A stretch of DNA of 20,283 nucleotides, from positions 1 through 20,283 of IMG/VR virus record IMGVR_UViG_3300028384_000335; one strand, written 5' to 3'. The notes below the pieces were generated by a model. That model did not search any database and was not told the DNA's origin. It saw nothing but the letters and a program-made list of their open reading frames with translations. Both the position numbers and the translations under genes were made by a program. Below, piece by piece: positions 5,720-15,608 of this stretch; positions within the stretch are counted from its first letter, which is position 1, and each line of letters starts with the position of its first letter. Source of the stretch: a virus.

Positions 5720-5890
5720 ATGTCTACTCCTCACTTTGAAAGTTATCAGGACTTCTGCTTCTGGTGTTACATGCGTGGTGTGAAACCAACTCTGGAAGGT
5801 TGGCACTCCAGCAACACTAATGTGAGCAGTCGTCCTGTCATCATTGAAGACATTCAGGAGCAAGTATTCCTAACAGAGGATGCTGAATAA
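5720..5890 (+). CDS. 56-aa protein, unknown function
   Basis: ATG at 5720 opens 56 codons ending in TAA at 5888-5890. The first half is aromatic and Cys-containing (YQDFCFWCYMRGVKP), with C13 and C16 in a CxxC-like spacing, and the second half is acidic. It lies alone between two late boxes, which supports it as a late gene. No function can be assigned. Confidence 0.6.
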   Translation: MSTPHFESYQDFCFWCYMRGVKPTLEGWHSSNTNVSSRPVIIEDIQEQVFLTEDAE

Positions 5891-5893
5891 ATA
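5886..5893 (+). promoter_or_regulatory. T4-type late promoter box (AATAAATA)
   Basis: AATAAATA includes the TAA stop of the 56-aa gene and lies 20 bases before the ATG at 5914. It is the likely late promoter for the 5914-8266 operon that includes the kinase-like gene. Confidence 0.6.
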
Positions 5894-5913: not shown

Positions 5914-6324
5914 ATGGACTTCTCTAATTTTCTAAAATCAGCTGTACCTCCTCTGTATGAAGCAGAAGGTAAAGATCCCACGTGCCCCAAAGGATTTAAG
6001 TGGGATTCCGCTGCTGGTTGCTGTATGCCTCACACTCCAAAAGGGGAAGAGAGTTCCAATCCTGGAGATCAGGCACCAGCATTTACTCCAAACTATAATG
6101 TGTGGGGAGCGACAGGAATTGATGGTGATGGATGGGCAATTGGCGTTGAAGAATCCTACACACAAGGTCCAGATGATTATGAGAGATATGATAAGGAAAA
6201 GAAAGAATTTGAAAAGAAAGATCGCAGAATGAAATATGGAAAGTCTGGCGATTCAACAGGTCTGAAGCCAGGTGAAGTGAAAAGATTCAATAAAGTAACT
6301 GGGCGGTGGGAGTCGAACAAATGA
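5914..6324 (+). CDS. Candidate internal head protein with capsid-targeting-like N-terminus
   Basis: The 136-aa product begins MDFSNFLKSAVPPLYEAEGK. The M-x-F-x-x-F-L pattern followed by L-Y-E-A resembles T4 capsid-targeting peptides and the T4 prohead protease site (L/I-x-E, cut before A or G), so residues 1-16 may be removed in the prohead. A Cys cluster follows (C24-PKGFKWDSAAG-C36-C37), then a Gly/Asp/Trp-rich part and a basic, Lys-rich end (KKEFEKKDRRMKYGKSG). A GTG at 5902 would extend it by four residues, but the ATG at 5914 fits the leader pattern better. It overlaps the next gene by ATGA (6321-6324). Function is unknown. Confidence 0.65.
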   Translation: MDFSNFLKSAVPPLYEAEGKDPTCPKGFKWDSAAGCCMPHTPKGEESSNPGDQAPAFTPNYNVWGATGIDGDGWAIGVEESYTQGPDDYERYDKEKKEFEKKDRRMKYGKSGDSTGLKPGEVKRFNKVTGRWESNK

Positions 6325-7157
6325 AGAGATTGAGCGATTTCATCAAAGAAGATGAGAGTAAAGCAAAGAAAGAAGCTCTAAGACTCGGACTGAAATATAA
6401 AGGATTCGGTAATTGGGTCGACCCTGCCACAGGACAGACCTATAGAACCGTTGAGGATCAATTGGTGCCGGTTGAGGGAGAAGATTCAGCCGATATGGCC
6501 GATGTCGGTGCCGATATCGGAAAGGAACCCCGAACCTCTGGAATTACTCCAGGAAATGTCCCAAAGAATGTACAGAATGTCCTAAAGGCTCCGGATCCGG
6601 GAGAGGCAAAATCTCCTGGATTGATTGGTTGGTATGCTGGTCCTGACGGAGATACTTTGGTTGGTGACAACCCAACTAATCTTGGCACTCCTGATGATTC
6701 ATTCGAGAGAAAACGCAACAACCCGAACTGGGTAGCTGGACCTGAAGGATCCAACTTCACAAACGTCGACACAGGGAAGGTAGTCTCTGGTGAGTGGCCA
6801 GCGTGGAAGCCAATGGTTGGCGAATCTCTGAATGAAATCAATGCTGATTGGCCAGGCAAATCACAAGGTAAACCTTTGATTCCTGATTCTGCTCCTCCTG
6901 TTCCTGATTCTGAGAATCCAGCAAAGCAGAGAATGAAGAAGATTATGGGTAAGAAACCCGCTTCTGAAAGAACAAACAGAGAAGCTCAGAGTGCTCTGAA
7001 TAAAATGAGAGCAAATCCAGATCAACAGACTGTTTTTGGAAGGCAACTTGCTTCCATGATGAAGATTGCTAATCGTCCGGCTGCTCCAGATCCTTTTGCC
7101 ACTTATCCACAACCACCTGACACGCTTGACATCGAAAGAAACGAGAGAATGAGATGA
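6321..7157 (+). CDS. Candidate internal head protein with WVDPxTG module
   Basis: This 278-aa protein starts MKRLSDFIKEDESKAKKE, close to the T4 internal-protein leader MKTYQEFIxEA, with I-K-E a possible processing site. Residues 17-52 (EALRLGLKYKGFGNWVDPATGQ..RTV...LV) form a module that occurs twice more in the 554-aa protein at 8561. The rest is Pro/Gly/Asn-rich and probably extended, with a basic helix near 205-250. The ATG at 6321 overlaps the preceding stop; an upstream in-frame GTG (6306) is less likely. Its own stop overlaps the kinase-like gene's ATG (7154-7157), so both are probably made together. No enzymatic motif is visible. Confidence 0.65.
   Translation: MKRLSDFIKEDESKAKKEALRLGLKYKGFGNWVDPATGQTYRTVEDQLVPVEGEDSADMADVGADIGKEPRTSGITPGNVPKNVQNVLKAPDPGEAKSPGLIGWYAGPDGDTLVGDNPTNLGTPDDSFERKRNNPNWVAGPEGSNFTNVDTGKVVSGEWPAWKPMVGESLNEINADWPGKSQGKPLIPDSAPPVPDSENPAKQRMKKIMGKKPASERTNREAQSALNKMRANPDQQTVFGRQLASMMKIANRPAAPDPFATYPQPPDTLDIERNERMR
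6369..6476 (+). repeat. WVDPxTG module, copy in the 278-aa protein
   Basis: Encodes residues 17-52, pattern A/E-x-LGL-x(4-5)-G-x-WVDPxTGQ-x(2)-RTV-x(3)-LV. Two related copies are at 8648-8758 and 8843-8956 in another gene, so this is a shared protein module and not a DNA repeat. Confidence 0.6.
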
Positions 7158-8266
7158 ATAAGATTGCCAGAGGTTTGGTTCAGGATCCAGATTATGACAT
7201 GGGAGAAATAGATTTTGATGATGATGGTTATTTGGCAGAAGGTGCATTTGGTTCTGTTTATCTGAGACCAGATGGAAATGTGGTGAAGAAAGGAATGATT
7301 GGTCCTGATGAACTCAAGGCACTTCATGCCATGAAAGACAATCCTCGATTCCCCACTCTTATCAATGCGAAGTTTGAAACTCCCTTCAAGAACTTCTCTG
7401 CTGAGTACAACAACCCAATGAATGTTGATAATGAAAGAAGGGGTACTGCAGGTTATTGGGATCCTGATGATGCTTCAGACTTCGAAAGAAAGTTTCCCGG
7501 TGCAGAAGGAACTTATGCAATGACTCCAGCGAAGGGTCAGGAACTCTTCAGTGTTTTCGAAAGTCTGGATGATGAGACAAAGGATAAAGCAATGAGAAAC
7601 TTCTGGAAAGCTAGAGGTGATCTTCATAAGGCAGGTTTCTCTCATAATGACATGCACGGAGGAAACATCTTTGTGGATCCTGAAACTGGAGAAGTGAACA
7701 TCATCGACCTTGGGCTCGCAAAAGAAAACCGCAGATCCGCACTGATGGAAGCTCTGGGAGGAATGGATTATGAGCAGGGTGAGGATTATCAGCTAAGTGG
7801 GCAACTCTCAGGTGCTCAACTCAGCGATAGAATGAGAGATCTCTTTGATAAAAACAGAAGTAAAGTGGAGCAGATGATTATGGATAACATGCCAGCTGAA
7901 GCTTCAGAGTACGATGATTATGATGAGGATGAAGATTATTCGGAGCAGTTTGAAAGAGGCACCGAAGCACTTCAGTACCTTCTTGGTGGTGGAATCAGAA
8001 TGGAAAACTTTATGTTGGATAAGCTGGGGGAGGACATTCCATTCCTAAAAGATGATAAGAACGTTGAGGAATTGATTAAAGTTCTTTATGATGAGGTTGG
8101 TCAATCCGAACTGGCAGATAGAATGTCAGATGCCTTCACAAAGAGGCAAAATGACAGCAAGATTATCAGAGCAGCGGATAAGATTAGAAAGAGCAAAGGA
8201 CAGGCACCAATTGATGTGAAGAATCGTAACGTTATTCCTCCAAGGTTCATGGACTTTGACGATTGA
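7154..8266 (+). CDS. Protein kinase-like protein
   Basis: The 370-aa protein has the main kinase-fold landmarks in order: a Gly-rich loop AEGAFGSVYL (28-37), a Lys in VVKKG (45-46), a candidate alpha-C Glu (E53), a catalytic loop H164-N-D166-MHGG-N171, and a metal-binding D185-L-G in NIIDLGLAK. All catalytic residues (Lys, Asp, Asn, Asp) are present, so it is likely active. The HND-x-HGGN form recalls RIO, ABC1 and aminoglycoside-kinase-like groups more than typical Hanks kinases. The C-terminal half (about 195-370) is charged, helical and unassigned. It is translationally coupled to the 278-aa gene. Targets may be host proteins, by analogy with T7 gp0.7, but the sequence does not show this. 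Small-molecule phosphorylation is an alternative. Confidence 0.8.
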   Translation: MNKIARGLVQDPDYDMGEIDFDDDGYLAEGAFGSVYLRPDGNVVKKGMIGPDELKALHAMKDNPRFPTLINAKFETPFKNFSAEYNNPMNVDNERRGTAGYWDPDDASDFERKFPGAEGTYAMTPAKGQELFSVFESLDDETKDKAMRNFWKARGDLHKAGFSHNDMHGGNIFVDPETGEVNIIDLGLAKENRRSALMEALGGMDYEQGEDYQLSGQLSGAQLSDRMRDLFDKNRSKVEQMIMDNMPAEASEYDDYDEDEDYSEQFERGTEALQYLLGGGIRMENFMLDKLGEDIPFLKDDKNVEELIKVLYDEVGQSELADRMSDAFTKRQNDSKIIRAADKIRKSKGQAPIDVKNRNVIPPRFMDFDD

Positions 8267-8299: not shown

Positions 8300-8530
8300 A
8301 TGAAACGTTTAGACCAGTTCTTCGAATCAGAAGACGACAGAAAAGTAAGACCAACAAAAAAGAATGAGGGCAAGGATGACAAAAAGTTTATCGCTCTGAT
8401 GGATCAGTATAAGATGCTTCGCCGTCAGAAAGACAGAACAGAATCAGCTAAAGTACTCAAGCAAGCACTCGAACTTTCCAAAGAAGGAGACGTCTCTGAT
8501 AAAGCAAAGATGGCTGCTGCTTATCTTTGA
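8300..8530 (+). CDS. Small charged protein, unknown function
   Basis: The 76-aa protein has a clear AAAGGAG Shine-Dalgarno (8287-8293) before its ATG. It starts MKRLDQFFESEDD, again similar to the capsid-targeting pattern (F-F-E-S), and is otherwise highly charged and helical (YKMLRRQKDRTESAKVLKQ). Because it has an early-type promoter, packaging is less convincing for it than for its neighbours. The end is followed two bases later by a perfect late box for the next gene. Confidence 0.65.
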   Translation: MKRLDQFFESEDDRKVRPTKKNEGKDDKKFIALMDQYKMLRRQKDRTESAKVLKQALELSKEGDVSDKAKMAAAYL

Positions 8531-8531
8531 T

Positions 8532-8539
8532 TATAAATA
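8532..8539 (+). promoter_or_regulatory. T4 late promoter box, exact TATAAATA
   Basis: TATAAATA is identical to the T4 late consensus and lies 21 bases before the ATG at 8561, directly after the preceding stop. It is the best late box in the window and likely drives the 554-aa and 737-aa genes. Confidence 0.75.
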
Positions 8540-8560: not shown

Positions 8561-10225
8561 ATGTCTGAGTCGCGTTGGAGAAATTGGGTCGATAATTCGG
8601 TCAAAACAAATCGCGGTTTCAGAACCTTTATGGAAGGCCGCGCTGCTGAAGAGGCAAGGAAAGCAGGTCTCGTTTCCGACTTCTATGGTCGATGGAAGAA
8701 TCCAGAAACCGGTGAAGTTATCGCCAAAACAGTCGGAGATAGACTTGTCTATCTTGATGCTGATGAAGTGTCGAATCCAGGAGCAAGAGATCCTGAAGCG
8801 GATATGGGAAACCCCACCAGTGCTGCTAGTGGTCTCAGTCCTGCTGACAGAGCAAGAGCTCTTGGTCTTCAATCAGATGGTTCAGGTGGTTATGTCGACC
8901 CACAGACCGGCCAGGTCGCTGCCAGAACAGTGAATGGTGAGTTGGTATTCTACGACAGTCGCGGAAGCGGTGGTGCGGTTTCTGATGGTGCTGGCGGACA
9001 GGCGATGGTTCAGTCACAACCATCATGGAAAGATCCTGTGACTGGTGTCATCATCGTTCCTCCCGCAAAACCAGAGACTCCTTATGAATATGAGGCCATT
9101 CCTGCCGCTGTACCAGCACAGTCTCCTATGGGTTTCCAAAGCTTCTTGGACCAAAAGAGAAAGGAGATGTATGATAGTCAGGCTGCTGCGGCAGGGGCGG
9201 CGCCTCCTCAGGAGGCAGAAGCAGAATTAGAGCAAGAAACAGAGGCAGAAGAGAGTCCAGCGATGGCTAACTATCGCGAAGAGATGCAGGATGTCATTGG
9301 TTTGGCACGAGAAAGTGGAGACGAAGAAAAAATTATACAAGCCGATAAAGCAGAAAAGTTAATCAATAGTGATGAATTTAAGAAAGAAGTTCAAGAATAC
9401 TTTGAGCTCGCACCAGAAGATAAGCAAGAAGACATTCTAGACCTAGCCATAGAACTTGCAATTGTTACTGCCAAAAATGAAAGAGCCGAAGAATTATTAA
9501 AAGAAATCGATGACAATGATTCTTTAAGTGAAGAAGAGAGAAAAAAACAAACTAACGAGTTACTCGATAAACGGGATTATGACTTCCCTCACGTACTCAA
9601 GAAAGAAATTGAGGATATTGTCGGAGAGTTTCGATCTTCCGATCCGGAGGTGGATGAATATCCAGAAGAAGAAAAGAGGTATGATGGTGACAAGATATTC
9701 TACGATTTGAAATCTGTCAATCCATATGGATCTGATTTGGCTCCCTTTGATTATGATGATGTGGAAGTTGAAGCTAAAAACATTCTCAAAGATAATGGGA
9801 ATCCTTCTGGTATCAAAGGTCTCACTCGTATTGATTGGTATAACCAAAAAGAAGGAGAGATTCCTAACAGTGAAAAGAAAAGTAACGCTTTCGATGCTCT
9901 GAAGGTCTGGAGAAGACAAGTGCTTCCCGATTTGAAACCTGGAACTGTCGTTTACAATGCACCTATGGAAGGTGGAAGAGGCGATAATGCAAGAGAAAGA
10001 ATCTACACACTCGCAGGATTTGGCCCTCTGGATAAAGAGAAAGGTGTGCAACTTGGTGTTGTTGTCCAAGATGAGCAGGGCAAAAACAAGGTTGTACCTA
10101 TTGGAGAAGAGGAAGGAGGAAGAAGAAGGAGAAGAGTTGCAGAATCCATTATGTGGATGTTGGATGATGAAATAAATAACTTCGAAGAATATCGATTAAT
10201 GGAAAGTCTCTTTCATGGATTATAA
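8561..10225 (+). CDS. Modular late protein with two WVDPxTG repeats and the GGRGxNARER module
   Basis: The 554-aa protein begins with a charged, Trp-containing segment and has F-M-E-G at residues 23-26, a candidate prohead protease site. Residues 30-66 and 95-132 are two copies of the WxDPxTG module also found in the 278-aa protein, with a partial third copy (SWKDPVTGVIIV, 155-166). A Pro/Ala/Glu-rich linker and an acidic helical region (about 210-400) follow. Residues 444-514 (DALKVWRRQVLPDL, PMEGGRGDNARERIY, AGFG) match the module of the 776-aa protein. A run of five Arg lies near the end. It has links to two other proteins of this window and a perfect late promoter. Function is unknown; a virion or injected role is inferred. 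It overlaps the 737-aa gene by 11 bases. Confidence 0.75.
   Translation: MSESRWRNWVDNSVKTNRGFRTFMEGRAAEEARKAGLVSDFYGRWKNPETGEVIAKTVGDRLVYLDADEVSNPGARDPEADMGNPTSAASGLSPADRARALGLQSDGSGGYVDPQTGQVAARTVNGELVFYDSRGSGGAVSDGAGGQAMVQSQPSWKDPVTGVIIVPPAKPETPYEYEAIPAAVPAQSPMGFQSFLDQKRKEMYDSQAAAAGAAPPQEAEAELEQETEAEESPAMANYREEMQDVIGLARESGDEEKIIQADKAEKLINSDEFKKEVQEYFELAPEDKQEDILDLAIELAIVTAKNERAEELLKEIDDNDSLSEEERKKQTNELLDKRDYDFPHVLKKEIEDIVGEFRSSDPEVDEYPEEEKRYDGDKIFYDLKSVNPYGSDLAPFDYDDVEVEAKNILKDNGNPSGIKGLTRIDWYNQKEGEIPNSEKKSNAFDALKVWRRQVLPDLKPGTVVYNAPMEGGRGDNARERIYTLAGFGPLDKEKGVQLGVVVQDEQGKNKVVPIGEEEGGRRRRRVAESIMWMLDDEINNFEEYRLMESLFHGL
8648..8758 (+). repeat. WxDPxTG module, first copy in the 554-aa protein
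   Basis: Encodes residues 30-66, with EARKAGLVSDFYGRWKNPET, then G-x-VIAKTVGDRLVYL. It aligns with residues 95-132 of the same protein and 17-52 of the 278-aa protein. Confidence 0.6.
8843..8956 (+). repeat. WxDPxTG module, second copy in the 554-aa protein
   Basis: Encodes residues 95-132, with RARALGLQSDGSGGYVDPQT, then GQVAARTVNGELVFY. The conserved core is LGL, G-x-[WY]-V-D-P-x-T-G-Q, R-T-V, L-V. Confidence 0.6.
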
Positions 10226-12428
10226 GAAATTTATATCCGAAGCACCTAGAGTCTATCCTGCTTCTCCACCCAAATCAAAAGAATTAAATCCCACTCAGAA
10301 AGCAGTCAAGGATGCTGGAGATGTTGGTAAGAGAGAAATCGTTCAAAAAGCTACTGGGAAGACAGTTTCTAATAAAAACTATGGTAGAGAAGCGAGAAAA
10401 CTTACCACCAAAGGCATCGATACTCAGTGGGATGATGGACTGAGTAGAGAAGTAGGAAAAACATATGGAAGTGACGTATCTCCACAGGATACGGTTCCCG
10501 ATACTCCTGCTCCATCATTCAAAAAAGATGATGACTCTGAGAGAGATCGACTGGTTGATAGGGCACTCACACTGACTGCTCCAGATGCTATGAAGCAGAA
10601 GAAAAGAGAAGCGGTATCGGATCGTCAAGGTGCTGGAGCTTCTCCAGAATTGCAATCCGATTTTGAGGGGATTGTGAAAGCTCTTCAAGCTAAAAGAGAA
10701 GGTAAACCTGTAGATCCGAAATATGATTATGAAGATCTAGAACTTTCTCAAAAACAAAAAGAGTTAGGTGCGAGAGCTAAAATATCTGCAGCGAAATTGA
10801 CAGATCAACAAAAAGATCTTGTCAGGGGTATCGAATATAAAGATGGTGAGCCTGTAGACCAAGAATCGGCGCCAGAGAGAATGGATCGAGCTGCTCGAGC
10901 CATAGGACCACTGGGTGCGTTGACCGGAGACAAGAATGTTGATGATGAGATGAATAAGCTCATCCGATCTGCACAATCCGGAAATGTTAGAGCGCAACTT
11001 AAGTTAAGAGATCTTGAAATTGATGATCTCGATGACATCATCTACACTCGCCATTCCCAACAACCAGAAGCGTCCAATCTACCACGAGTTTTAGATGCTG
11101 ACGCGATTTCGACTCTCGGTGCCCTCACCAGCGACAAAAGAGAAGGTAGCAAATTGAAGAGAGACTCACAAGAGATCTCATCACAAAAGAAAAAGGTTGG
11201 AGAGAATCCACTAAACCCAAGTCCATCAAAGAGAGATTATGAGAATCTAGATGATCGTCTTCTTAAAAAGAATTATGAATCCGGAAAGCTAACGAAAAAG
11301 GAATACGACAAACAACTCAAAATCAATAAAGCTCTTCTGGGAGATGGCACAGAACCAAATGCAGAAGCGCTTCAAAAAGAAATCTTTACTCACGAAGTTG
11401 ATGATGATGCCATCGATCAATTCATGCAAATGTATGCTGGCGCCGAGCTGTCAAATGTCGGTGGCCGCGGCCTCGACCCAAAAAGAATGAAAGCGGCATA
11501 TGGTGGAGATTTAGAAAGTGAATTAGAATCCCTTGGCCTTTCTCCTAAGGACATTGAAGAATTCAAAGTTGAAGGAGCCCCCGATGGTGTGTGGAATCTC
11601 GCCGCCATGCAGAAGGCAAAAAATGCAGACATAAGAAAACTAGTTCCAATCGCTAATCAGAATCGACTGAAAGGTGTGATTGAAACTTACCTAAAGCAGG
11701 GTGGAAGAGATGCTTATGCCAGACACGAGGGTATAAGGTCAATTCTCGACATGAACTTGGAACATATCCATAGTTTAGATGCTGGTGGATATGACCACCC
11801 AGATAACTGGTCATGGGCAGGAGAAGAACTCAATAAGTTTAAGAATGCAAGAAACTTAATCGCTCATACTCAAAGTAAATTAGATGATGAGAAAGAAGTA
11901 CAAGTACCACAAGAATATCAAAGAAGTACTTTCTCAGATATAACACAGAAAGCGAAAGCAGCAGAAACAAAAAAAGAGCAACAGAAATGGAAGGATTCTT
12001 ATTCCGATTTCTTTGGAGGAAAGAGTCCAACTATTGGTGCTGGTGGAATTCCTGCTGCTTCTTATCTAAATTTTGATGCTGATACTATACAATCATTCAG
12101 ACAGAAAGCTATGGATGAGTTTGGAGTGGACCAAGAAGTAGCAGATTCTATGTTCCCCACACCAAAAGAAGTAGTTACTCGCAAAGGATTGTTGGATGGA
12201 CTTGATGACTATGAAGCAGCTAGATTGCAAAAAGAAAAGGAAAGAGTTCTAAGAGACACTGGATTGGAAAGACTTAAGAAATCTCTCGGATTTAGAAGTC
12301 AAGATGATGCAGCTGCTAGTGTAGCAGGCAAAGAATTCTTGAGAAGATTAGATACTTGGGGAGTGGAACCACCAACAGAAGACCAACAACCACCGGCACG
12401 CAGAAGAAGAGCAAGGGGTGCATTCTAA
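10215..12428 (+). CDS. Candidate internal head protein with HNH endonuclease-like motif
   Basis: The 737-aa protein starts MDYKKFISEAPR, very close to the T4 internal-protein leader MKTYQEFIxEA, with I-S-E-A as an ideal prohead protease site. A long, charged, mostly helical region follows, with a short repeated motif LGALT[GS]DK (near residues 234 and 304) and a SHOCT-like segment (LLKKNYESGKLTKKEYDKQL, near 348-367). At 516-544 lies an HNH-like pattern: E516-H517-I, GGYDHPDN531, then N540-KFK. The H-to-N spacing of 14 and N-to-N of 9 fits HNN-type nucleases. The tail is Arg-rich (RRRRARG). The ATG lies within the upstream gene, with GGAAAG 9 bases before. If packaged, this could be a DNA-cleaving or DNA-processing protein delivered to the host; that is inference. 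Confidence 0.7.
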   Translation: MDYKKFISEAPRVYPASPPKSKELNPTQKAVKDAGDVGKREIVQKATGKTVSNKNYGREARKLTTKGIDTQWDDGLSREVGKTYGSDVSPQDTVPDTPAPSFKKDDDSERDRLVDRALTLTAPDAMKQKKREAVSDRQGAGASPELQSDFEGIVKALQAKREGKPVDPKYDYEDLELSQKQKELGARAKISAAKLTDQQKDLVRGIEYKDGEPVDQESAPERMDRAARAIGPLGALTGDKNVDDEMNKLIRSAQSGNVRAQLKLRDLEIDDLDDIIYTRHSQQPEASNLPRVLDADAISTLGALTSDKREGSKLKRDSQEISSQKKKVGENPLNPSPSKRDYENLDDRLLKKNYESGKLTKKEYDKQLKINKALLGDGTEPNAEALQKEIFTHEVDDDAIDQFMQMYAGAELSNVGGRGLDPKRMKAAYGGDLESELESLGLSPKDIEEFKVEGAPDGVWNLAAMQKAKNADIRKLVPIANQNRLKGVIETYLKQGGRDAYARHEGIRSILDMNLEHIHSLDAGGYDHPDNWSWAGEELNKFKNARNLIAHTQSKLDDEKEVQVPQEYQRSTFSDITQKAKAAETKKEQQKWKDSYSDFFGGKSPTIGAGGIPAASYLNFDADTIQSFRQKAMDEFGVDQEVADSMFPTPKEVVTRKGLLDGLDDYEAARLQKEKERVLRDTGLERLKKSLGFRSQDDAAASVAGKEFLRRLDTWGVEPPTEDQQPPARRRRARGAF

Positions 12429-13373: not shown

Positions 13374-14240
13374 ATGAAGAACTTCGGTGCATTCTTTGAG
13401 GAAGCAGATGAAGCGTCCTCCATGCAACCCCCAAACAGAGTCTCTGATGATATTGTAACTACCTTTGGTAGACACAATCCGCCTCACTTGGGTCACAAAC
13501 TAACCCTAGATTATGCTAATGATGTTGCCAACAACATTGGGGACGGAGATACTCCTGCAGATCAAAGATTCTACACTTCCAGGTCTCAGGATCCTAAAAA
13601 GAATCCTCTTCCCTTTCAACTGAAGTTGGATCATCTGAAGAGAATGTTTCCAGAGCACGCAAATAAGTGGGATGATGACGATAATGTAAGAACTGTACTG
13701 AATGCAGCAACTAAAGCACACGGGCAGGGTTATAAGAACTTCCACTTCATTGGAGGTGGAGACCGTCGACAAGGTATGGAAGACCTTCTACGACGTTATA
13801 ATGGAAACCTCTACGATTTTGATAACATCTATTCACACTCTGCTGGAGAAAGGGATGAGGATTCAGAGGACCCTATTGCAGCACTCAGTGCCTCTGGTCA
13901 AAGGAAATCAGCGATGGGTGGAGACTTTGATTCGTTTCTAGGGGGAATTGGATTAAACGATCAATACACAGAGAACGATGCGAAGGAACTCTTCGAACTC
14001 CTGCGCAGGTTTATGGTGAAGAATGAAGAATTCATTTGGGAAGTGGATCATCGTGGGTGTAGAGATGAAATCCGCGATCGTTATTGTGAAGGGAAACTAT
14101 TCCACCAAGGAGATTTGGTGGAGTCATTGAGCTCTGGATTGGTTGGTAAGGTTCATCGTTGTGGTTCCAATCACCTTATCTGTGTCACAGAAAACGGAAT
14201 TATGTTCAAGAATTTCATTTATGATGTTCGTCCTCTCTAA
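13374..14240 (+). CDS. HxGH cytidylyltransferase-like protein with capsid-targeting-like N-terminus
   Basis: The 288-aa protein begins MKNFGAFFEEADEA, close to the T4 capsid-targeting pattern, with F-E-E-A as a candidate cleavage site. A nucleotidyltransferase domain of the HIGH superfamily follows: TTFGRHNPPHLGHKLTLDYA (29-48) contains H38-L-G-H41, which binds the nucleotide phosphates, and FHFIGGGDRRQGM (about 123-135) fits a later strand and loop. Such domains add NMP to small molecules (CTP or ATP to a phosphorylated alcohol, NMN or pantetheine). The final 50 residues (FHQGDLVESLSSGLVGKV, then LICVTENGIMFKNFI) look like a small beta-barrel (KOW/SH3-like) appendix that I recall from cyanophage proteins. 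Substrate is unknown. It has a late box, unlike the methyltransferase before it. Confidence 0.75.
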   Translation: MKNFGAFFEEADEASSMQPPNRVSDDIVTTFGRHNPPHLGHKLTLDYANDVANNIGDGDTPADQRFYTSRSQDPKKNPLPFQLKLDHLKRMFPEHANKWDDDDNVRTVLNAATKAHGQGYKNFHFIGGGDRRQGMEDLLRRYNGNLYDFDNIYSHSAGERDEDSEDPIAALSASGQRKSAMGGDFDSFLGGIGLNDQYTENDAKELFELLRRFMVKNEEFIWEVDHRGCRDEIRDRYCEGKLFHQGDLVESLSSGLVGKVHRCGSNHLICVTENGIMFKNFIYDVRPL

Positions 14241-14265: not shown

Positions 14266-14898
14266 ATGGACTTCCATTCAATTAGAAAACTGAAGGAAAT
14301 CAAATCTCTCAGAGAAGAGATGGTTTCTGATTGGCGCAAAGATTTAGAAATCGCCGACGATAAAGAGTTAGGAGAGGCAGCTTATGTTCCTCCCCCTCCT
14401 CCAGTTCCTGCTGAAGTTCGTCCTGCACCTAAGCAAGGTACAGCATCCAGGGATTTGATTGCTGGTGCCACTGCTGCTTTCTATGCAGATGCTGCTGCTG
14501 AGATGGCAGCCAAAAAGAAGAAAGGTAAGAAGGATGCGAAGAAGCAACCTAAAGTAAGACCTGTATGGAAAGAAGAGCATCTTGACGAAGCAGGTGATCA
14601 TCCTTATGTTGACATCATGCCAGACAGCAATGAAGCAAAGCAAGATGCTAAAGACAAGAAGAAGAAATCAAAGAAAGAAGAAGGCATGAGTGAATCTGTT
14701 TATTCAGATCACATGAGAAGGCAAGAAATGTTGAAGCAGAAGAAACTTCAACCAAGTCAGCAACAGTCAATGGTAAATCTGAGTGACAGATCGGATGCAC
14801 AGGCTGAAAAGGCGGCACGAAGAAAAGAAACTCAATCTCAAAGAAAGCAACTGAATTTGCAGAAGAAGAAACAGAAAAAAGGAGGGTTGATGTTGTGA
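14266..14898 (+). CDS. Lys/Pro-rich late protein, candidate internal or scaffold-like protein
   Basis: The 210-aa product begins with a charged helix (MDFHSIRKLKEIKSLREE), has L-G-E-A at about 35-38 as a possible protease site, then a Pro run (AAYVPPPPPVPAEVRP), an Ala-rich helix and three Lys-rich stretches (AAKKKKGKKDAKKQPK, KDKKKKSKKEEG, KKKQKKGG). A strongly basic, largely disordered protein of this kind would suit DNA binding in the head, but no known domain is visible. The late box at 14236 supports late expression. The end carries GGAGG, which serves the GTG of the next gene (14895), with a GTGA overlap. Confidence 0.65.
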   Translation: MDFHSIRKLKEIKSLREEMVSDWRKDLEIADDKELGEAAYVPPPPPVPAEVRPAPKQGTASRDLIAGATAAFYADAAAEMAAKKKKGKKDAKKQPKVRPVWKEEHLDEAGDHPYVDIMPDSNEAKQDAKDKKKKSKKEEGMSESVYSDHMRRQEMLKQKKLQPSQQQSMVNLSDRSDAQAEKAARRKETQSQRKQLNLQKKKQKKGGLML

Positions 14899-15608
14899 GG
14901 AAATTATTTCGCGAAATGAAGCTCACGCTTCAATCTCATGAAACACTGAATCCAAAACTTTGGAATGATAAAGCAAAGTTAGATCCTGAAGTCTGGCATG
15001 CTCTTAACCGCATTGGTAAAGAGTGGGCTGATTTTGCCAACATCCCAAAGAGTGCCATCAAAGATGTCATTCTGACTGGTGGTAATGCAAACTACAACTA
15101 CACTCCATACTCAGATTTGGATCTCCATTTGGTTGTCGATAAAGACAAAATTGATTGTGAAGGAATTTTAGATGATTATCTTCAATCTAAAAAACAATTG
15201 TGGGCGCTAACCCATGACATCACCATCAAAGGACAACCTGTTGAGCTTTATGCTCAAGATTACAAAGATCCATTCAAAGAGGGTCAGGGAATCTATTCTC
15301 TCCAATCAAATAAATGGCTTCAGGAGCCAACCAAATACGAGATTGATAGGAAGCACCCAGAAGTCATCAGGAAAACCAAAGATTTCATGTATCAAATTGA
15401 TACTCTTATTGATACCAACTCTGATGATCTTGATGCTCTGAAGAAACTAAAAGAAAGAATCAAACTTATGAGAAGAGGCGCCATTGAAAAGGGTGGCGAA
15501 TCTGCACCAGAGAATCTGGTTTTCAAGGAGTTGAGAAACAGGGGATATCTAGATAAACTCTCAAAATATATCAGAGATCTGGAAGATACATCTTTATCAC
15601 TCAAGTAA
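14895..15608 (+). CDS. DNA polymerase beta-like nucleotidyltransferase
   Basis: The 237-aa protein carries the Pol-beta superfamily signature TGGNANYNYTPYSDLDLHLV (61-80): the Gly-Gly turn and the Asp pair D74-x-D76 that binds metal, with a likely third acidic residue in QPVELYAQD. The family transfers NMP to proteins, RNA, or small molecules, and the form seen here is known from memory in T4-like marine phages without assigned substrate. The C-terminus is charged and helical. The GTG at 14895 is chosen because a GGAGG ribosome site ends 9 bases before it and because it overlaps the upstream stop; an ATG at 14916 is an alternative. It is co-transcribed with the Lys-rich protein. Confidence 0.75.
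   Translation: MRKLFREMKLTLQSHETLNPKLWNDKAKLDPEVWHALNRIGKEWADFANIPKSAIKDVILTGGNANYNYTPYSDLDLHLVVDKDKIDCEGILDDYLQSKKQLWALTHDITIKGQPVELYAQDYKDPFKEGQGIYSLQSNKWLQEPTKYEIDRKHPEVIRKTKDFMYQIDTLIDTNSDDLDALKKLKERIKLMRRGAIEKGGESAPENLVFKELRNRGYLDKLSKYIRDLEDTSLSLK

Follow-up and report, generated by a model that had tools for sequence, protein, structure and literature searches.

A kinase-fold gene of a T4-like cyanophage contig, separated from the leader-bearing half to which it is fused in its relatives

Introduction

The closest described relatives of the gene studied here come from the cluster C cyanophages S-CRM01, S-CREM2, S-B68, S-H34, and S-N03 (PMC10665884). Mass spectrometry of S-CREM2 virions recovered the kinase homologue gp14 (21 unique peptides, 23.6% coverage), and the same virion table holds gp15, gp13, and gp12 (the last with 28 unique peptides) as well as gp154, gp155, gp156, and gp160 (PMC10665884). 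The S-CREM2 authors label gp14 as APH/ChoK-like and caution that proteins present in abundance could accompany the virions through CsCl purification; kinases had earlier been detected in S-CRM01 and S-TIM5 virions, as cited in the same paper, and S-CBWM1 kinases are reported in the virions of a cyanomyovirus (PMC10665884). In T4 itself, proteins are targeted to the core by a leader of ~10 residues, conserved between IPII and IPIII, which gp21 cleaves off; such a ~10-aa leader also packages foreign proteins (PMC9958956, PMC10229621). Polyvalent and MuF head-protein effectors instead deliver kinase or toxin domains within a virion protein (PMC5512222, PMC5576092).

Here, we describe a member of the gp14 family from an IMG/VR virus record of 20,283 bases, referred to hereafter as the window (the whole stretch of DNA that was analysed). 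An earlier note on this DNA had held that a late or virion-associated kinase would be notable in a T4-like marine phage; such a kinase is not new, virion-associated kinases of T4-like cyanophages being already published for S-CREM2 (PMC10665884) and for S-CRM01 as cited there. To this we add a leader motif of the T4 IPII/IPIII type in the N-terminal half of the protein, a repeat of ~38 aa, and, for most relatives, late-promoter motifs ahead of the module.

Results

A four-gene module shared with S-CREM2

The MazG, LOG-family, cytidylyltransferase, DUF7207, primase, and ribonucleotide reductase genes of the window match those of Synechococcus T4-like myoviruses. Full-length homologues of the kinase occur in 12 phage records, all from Synechococcus phages (the carriers being S-CRM01, S-CREM2, S-B68, S-H34, S-N03, and the MA01 group), and the S-CREM2 gene order gp15-gp14-gp13-gp12 is preserved in the window. 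The features discussed below all lie on the + strand:

5886..5893, +, late-promoter-like AATAAATA, 20 nt upstream of the first module gene
5914..6324, +, first module gene, homologue of S-CREM2 gp15; 136 aa from ATG 5914 (38.7% identity, E 1.5e-30)
6321..7157, +, N-terminal half of the kinase protein; 278 aa, with leader MKRLSDFIKE, a ~38-aa repeat at residues 13-53, and a variable linker
7145..7154, +, apparent deletion junction; 70 nt of the fused relative L008 absent, with a -1 frame shift (DNA alignment)
7154..8266, +, kinase-fold ORF, C-terminal half of the putative ancestral protein; 370 aa, ATG start (homology, Pfam, structure model)
8300..8530, +, 76-aa protein with a MKRLDQFFESED leader (near motif match), homologue of S-CREM2 gp13
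8532..8539, +, T4-type late promoter motif TATAAATA, with ORF 8561 following after 21 nt
8561..10225, +, 554-aa protein holding the ~38-aa repeat twice; homologous to S-CREM2 gp12 in its N-terminal region, different in its C-terminal part
13374..14240, +, NMNAT/cytidylyltransferase-like protein with strict leader MKNFGAFFEE, homologue of S-CREM2 gp154
14895..15608, +, nucleotidyltransferase-like protein, 75% identical to S-CREM2 gp156

Genes at 14266 and 16553 additionally match S-CREM2 gp155 (over 24 residues only) and gp160, respectively. As regards neighbouring proteins, S-CREM2 gp12 is annotated as Cas9-like and presents only a short HNH-like stretch, with no Pfam match; the window also encodes a 737-aa protein (10215-12428) with a leader-like start, MDYKKFISEA, a possible HNH-type motif (LEHIHSLDAGGYDHPDNW), and weak family matches. 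ORFs 576-2906 and 8561-10225 have in common the motif WxxQVLPDLxxGxVxxNxPMxGGRGxNARERxYxxAGFG.

The 7154 ORF has a predicted kinase fold and a complete catalytic set

All of the motifs that the earlier note had read in the ORF at 7154-8266 were recovered—a glycine-rich loop, VKK (K45), HNDMHGGN (H164, D166, N171), and DLG (D185-G187)—with the qualification that Ala28 replaces the first glycine of GxGxxG (AEGAFGSV in the window kinase, vs LGxGAFG in most relatives). The residue set of the kinase superfamily (Lys, alphaC Glu, HxD Asp, Asn, and DxG Asp) is thus complete, and K45, G47, E53, H164, D166, H168, N171, D185, and G187 show no variation across 31 aligned sequences; the three residues on whose conservation the kinase assignment had been staked (D166, N171, and D185) are among these. 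In profile searches, Pfam Pkinase scored just above its cut-off (32.3 bits against a gathering score of 31.7, E 8.5e-8), with APH and ABC1 slightly under theirs.

An AlphaFold2 model built from the 31 aligned sequences (mean pLDDT 83, pTM 0.79) predicts a two-lobed protein-kinase-like fold for the 7154-8266 product, in line with the structure check that had been proposed. Foldseek matched the model to 923 PDB chains at E<=0.001, the top matches listed being protein kinases, and VIA-align superimposed it on baculovirus PK-1 with Z 11.0 and rmsd 3.9 over 187 residues. The nearest viral structure models are proteins of S-CRM01 and S-H34, followed by the S-CBWM1 kinases. PADLOC returned PD-T4-6 and Stk2 for the 7154 kinase, which looks like generic kinase similarity; we do not adopt either identity.

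Several more distant kinase relatives have other architectures. Those at L022:4600-6792, L025:2935-5055, L055:4486-6726, and L047:2304-5156 are fused C-terminally to Phage_Mu_F (the last with a Zeta-toxin domain between the kinase-like and Phage_Mu_F domains), and a viral protein of 1461 aa (L044:4849-9231) has at least two kinase-like domains, one of which resembles the OspG kinase profile.

The kinase ORF and its upstream partner are halves of one gene in relatives

The kinase start codon overlaps the stop of the upstream ORF (6306-7157), forming at 7154 the ATGA overlap that the earlier note had described. This note had further proposed coupling to an upstream protein with a capsid-targeting-like leader: the upstream protein and its leader are real, but the protein is not a separate partner: in relatives, its counterpart forms the N-terminal part of the kinase protein itself. 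In all 17 of the relatives examined (six cyanomyovirus genomes and the 11 closest IMG/VR loci), the upstream part and the kinase form one protein of about 640-820 aa (646-821 aa in the six genomes); possession of both halves on one chain, usual in the cluster C family if not strictly defining, does not extend to the window. DNA alignment with the nearest relative, L008 (fused, kinase 69% identical), places the difference in 70 missing nucleotides that encompass a conserved linker and shift the frame by one. Sequence comparison thus identifies the window gene as an apparent ancestral fused gene, split by a 70-nt deletion. L008, S-CRM01, and S-CREM2 likewise have a methionine where the window kinase ORF starts.

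The split is known from one metagenomic contig. In IMG/VR, two exact DNA patterns recovered the junction from no further contig, a negative of little weight since records very near the window may fall outside the scan, and a search using the kinase alone gave no matches; an alignment query with the kinase returned 69 loci. Comparison of the window with L008 gave a dS of 4.6, such that synonymous sites are saturated (third positions being the most variable) and dN/dS neither dates the split nor shows later selection. Programmed frameshifting as a means of joining the two ORFs, which overlap by 28 nt, is not favoured, there being no slippery site by eye. On the subject of divided genes, the T4 record (L082:25066-25451; alt.-1 and alt.-2) holds an old duplicate of the alt start, now in two ORFs, which parallels the division of a head-cargo gene.

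Leader and repeat mark virion proteins

Read from its likely start at ATG 6321 (MKRLSDFIKEDES), preferred over GTG 6306 because it yields the leader, the upstream ORF opens with MKRLSDFIKE. We described such leaders by a strict pattern with T4 IPII/IPIII spacing, M..[YFLW]..F[ILVMF].E, which matches T4 ipII and ipIII and does not match ipI or alt. Five of the 219 S-CREM2 proteins carry this pattern, all five within the 52-protein virion set (Fisher p 6.5e-4, an optimistic value in that the pattern was fixed after the S-CREM2 N-termini had been seen), against a mean of 0.036 matches among shuffled S-CREM2 N-termini. Enrichment is weaker with the loose pattern (10 of 20 matches in the virion set, p 0.0067) and the relaxed one (7 of 14, p 0.025), and the two strict matches of S-SCSM1, its virion NMNAT and a small protein without a virion flag, are not significant alone. 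The strict matches of the window are ORF 6321, which bears out the capsid-targeting-like leader claimed for the upstream protein, and the NMNAT-like ORF 13374; the kinase ORF at 7154 gave no match to the strict pattern. Within the family, MA01, S-H34, S-N03, and L008 match the leader motif poorly. The family leader probably ends in a prohead-protease site.

Beyond the leader lies the ~38-aa repeat (consensus GLKYKGFGYWADPQTGxxxYKTxxDxLVPV, with no significant Pfam match), present at residues 13-53 of ORF 6321 and at residues 28-66 and 94-129 of ORF 8561. Among S-CREM2 proteins, a profile built on this repeat finds only gp12 and gp14 (E below 0.01), and among those of S-SCSM1 only the NMNAT (S-SCSM1_91), each of them a virion protein by mass spectrometry. 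A further carrier outside the window, S-MbCM6_171, runs from leader (MKKFSAFLSEA) to repeat to NMNAT-like domain, the same leader-then-repeat order as in the window. These arrangements suggest that leader and repeat form a common tag on different enzymes; this tag is the more interesting lead, beside the split kinase.

Late-promoter motifs precede the module

The window and 11 of the 16 listed relatives (L002, L005, L008-L015, and L018, with L014 and L015 near-identical to each other) have a NATAAATA motif ~13-22 nt upstream of the first module gene. In S-CREM2, the motif upstream of this gene is exactly that of T4, TATAAATA. Sites of the NATAAATA type number 31 on both strands of the whole S-CREM2 genome (174,876 bases). 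The frequency of late-promoter motifs within the window alone is not above chance; the argument for late expression rests on the conserved position of the motif, which supports the late context that the earlier note had assigned to the kinase.

Discussion

A proposed head-carried kinase family with one apparently divided member

The explanation that we favour, and hold to be fairly probable, is that the 7154 ORF encodes the kinase half of a protein that cluster C T4-like cyanophages carry as virion cargo; this protein would be made late, packaged in the head, and ejected. The family protein would be expressed late as one chain of leader, repeat, and C-terminal kinase-fold domain; the leader would take it into the scaffold core and be trimmed by the prohead protease, and the kinase, ejected together with the DNA, would phosphorylate a target of the host (or of the phage) as infection begins, much as T4 Alt acts by ADP-ribosylation. 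In the window, a tagged N-terminal half and an untagged kinase would be produced instead, probably together by stop-restart coupling at the ATGA, with the kinase either carried bound to the N-terminal half or acting only late in the producing cell. Virion presence was recorded for homologues only; the window's own kinase, which has no leader itself, may or may not be packaged.

How the window is read depends on whether its split is real. An assembly or sequencing error in a single metagenomic contig, the real virus having a fused and tagged kinase, is a serious contender that we place slightly short of an even chance: every one of the relatives examined is fused, L008 at 69% identity included, the stretch lost at the junction includes a conserved linker, and no second contig with this junction was found. 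Yet the reading frames of both halves are otherwise uninterrupted, the restart methionine is shared with several relatives, and the tidy ATGA overlap would make for viable biology. Were the split genuine, the freed kinase might go unpackaged and act late in the producing cell, on head assembly or on host proteins before lysis. Retention of the leader on the upstream ORF and its absence from the kinase ORF would fit such a role, as would the late-promoter context of the module; we nonetheless regard it as unlikely, in that the split is seen in no other family member and, given translational coupling and their common ancestry, the two halves may plausibly associate, which would retain the kinase in the virion.

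Doubt may also be cast on the virion itself, if the kinase and its module were abundant late proteins contaminating CsCl-purified particles rather than cargo. The S-CREM2 authors voice this co-purification caveat (PMC10665884), but the numbers of unique peptides (21 for gp14 and 28 for gp12), the selection of virion proteins only by the strict leader motif in S-CREM2, and the report of virion kinases from several cyanophages (PMC10665884) render contamination quite improbable. As regards the substrate, the catalytic loop is HNDMH rather than of the Hanks HRD type, no APE follows DLG, and the Pkinase profile is covered at positions 77-163 of 263 only; given the DMH of this loop and the short activation segment beyond DLG, a small-molecule substrate is possible. 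A phosphotransferase of small molecules or nucleotides (APH/choline-kinase-like), in place of a protein kinase, is accordingly a reading we entertain while leaning against it: Bud32/UbiB/APH profile matches and the APH/ChoK-like naming of the S-CREM2 homologue (PMC10665884) fit it, whereas Pkinase is the top Pfam score and the PDB fold neighbours are protein kinases, the weight of the latter being tempered by the dominance of protein kinases in structure libraries.

More tentatively still, a standard tag (leader plus DGxGxW-type ~38-aa repeat) may carry interchangeable head enzymes—kinase, NMNAT, and nuclease-like protein—with the window kinase riding in trans or having turned unpackaged; if true, the tag system would be a lytic-phage counterpart of polymorphic effectors. 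Returning to the head-cargo reading that we favour, a phage kinase brought in at entry could reprogram its picocyanobacterial host ahead of any phage gene expression. The leader-plus-repeat signature would provide a sequence rule for predicting head-carried cyanophage proteins, and such predictions a testable list of early effectors in abundant marine viruses.

Comparison with known systems

The window stands closest to S-CREM2 gp14 and S-CRM01 g130 ("PKN8"), with which it is homologous over both halves (for gp14, 36% in the N-terminal half and 41% in the kinase) and shares the four-gene order, late-promoter context, leader, and repeat; it differs in that theirs are fused proteins, whereas the window has separate ORFs and a kinase half lacking the leader. 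T7 gp0.7, a kinase of the early class, had been put forward as the precedent. This is the wrong comparison: gp0.7 offers the general idea of a phage kinase acting on the host, set apart here by early/late context alone, and T4 Alt and the internal proteins, as packaged and injected effectors, are nearer.

The APH-, RIO-, and ChoK-like virion kinases of S-CBWM1 are the next nearest viral folds, and differ in showing ~17-21% identity to the window kinase and in belonging to a phage that is not T4-like. With the MuF effectors, the link is through the distant relatives L022, L025, and L055, which carry the MuF domain; the 7154 and 6306 ORFs gave no Pfam match to Phage_Mu_F, and the delivery tag of the window is instead a T4-type leader. 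Polyvalent kinases moreover lack the C-terminal subdomain (PMC5512222, PMC5576092), whereas the window kinase retains its C-lobe.

Among T4 proteins, IPII and IPIII provide the model for the window leader, which is of ~10 residues and has the spacing of MKTYQEFIAEA. The cargo of the window is not homologous to that of the T4 internal proteins or Alt, being of kinase fold rather than an ADP-ribosyltransferase, and Alt itself does not have the strict leader motif. Alt is nevertheless a head-carried enzyme of late synthesis and early action, the same course that we infer for the window family.
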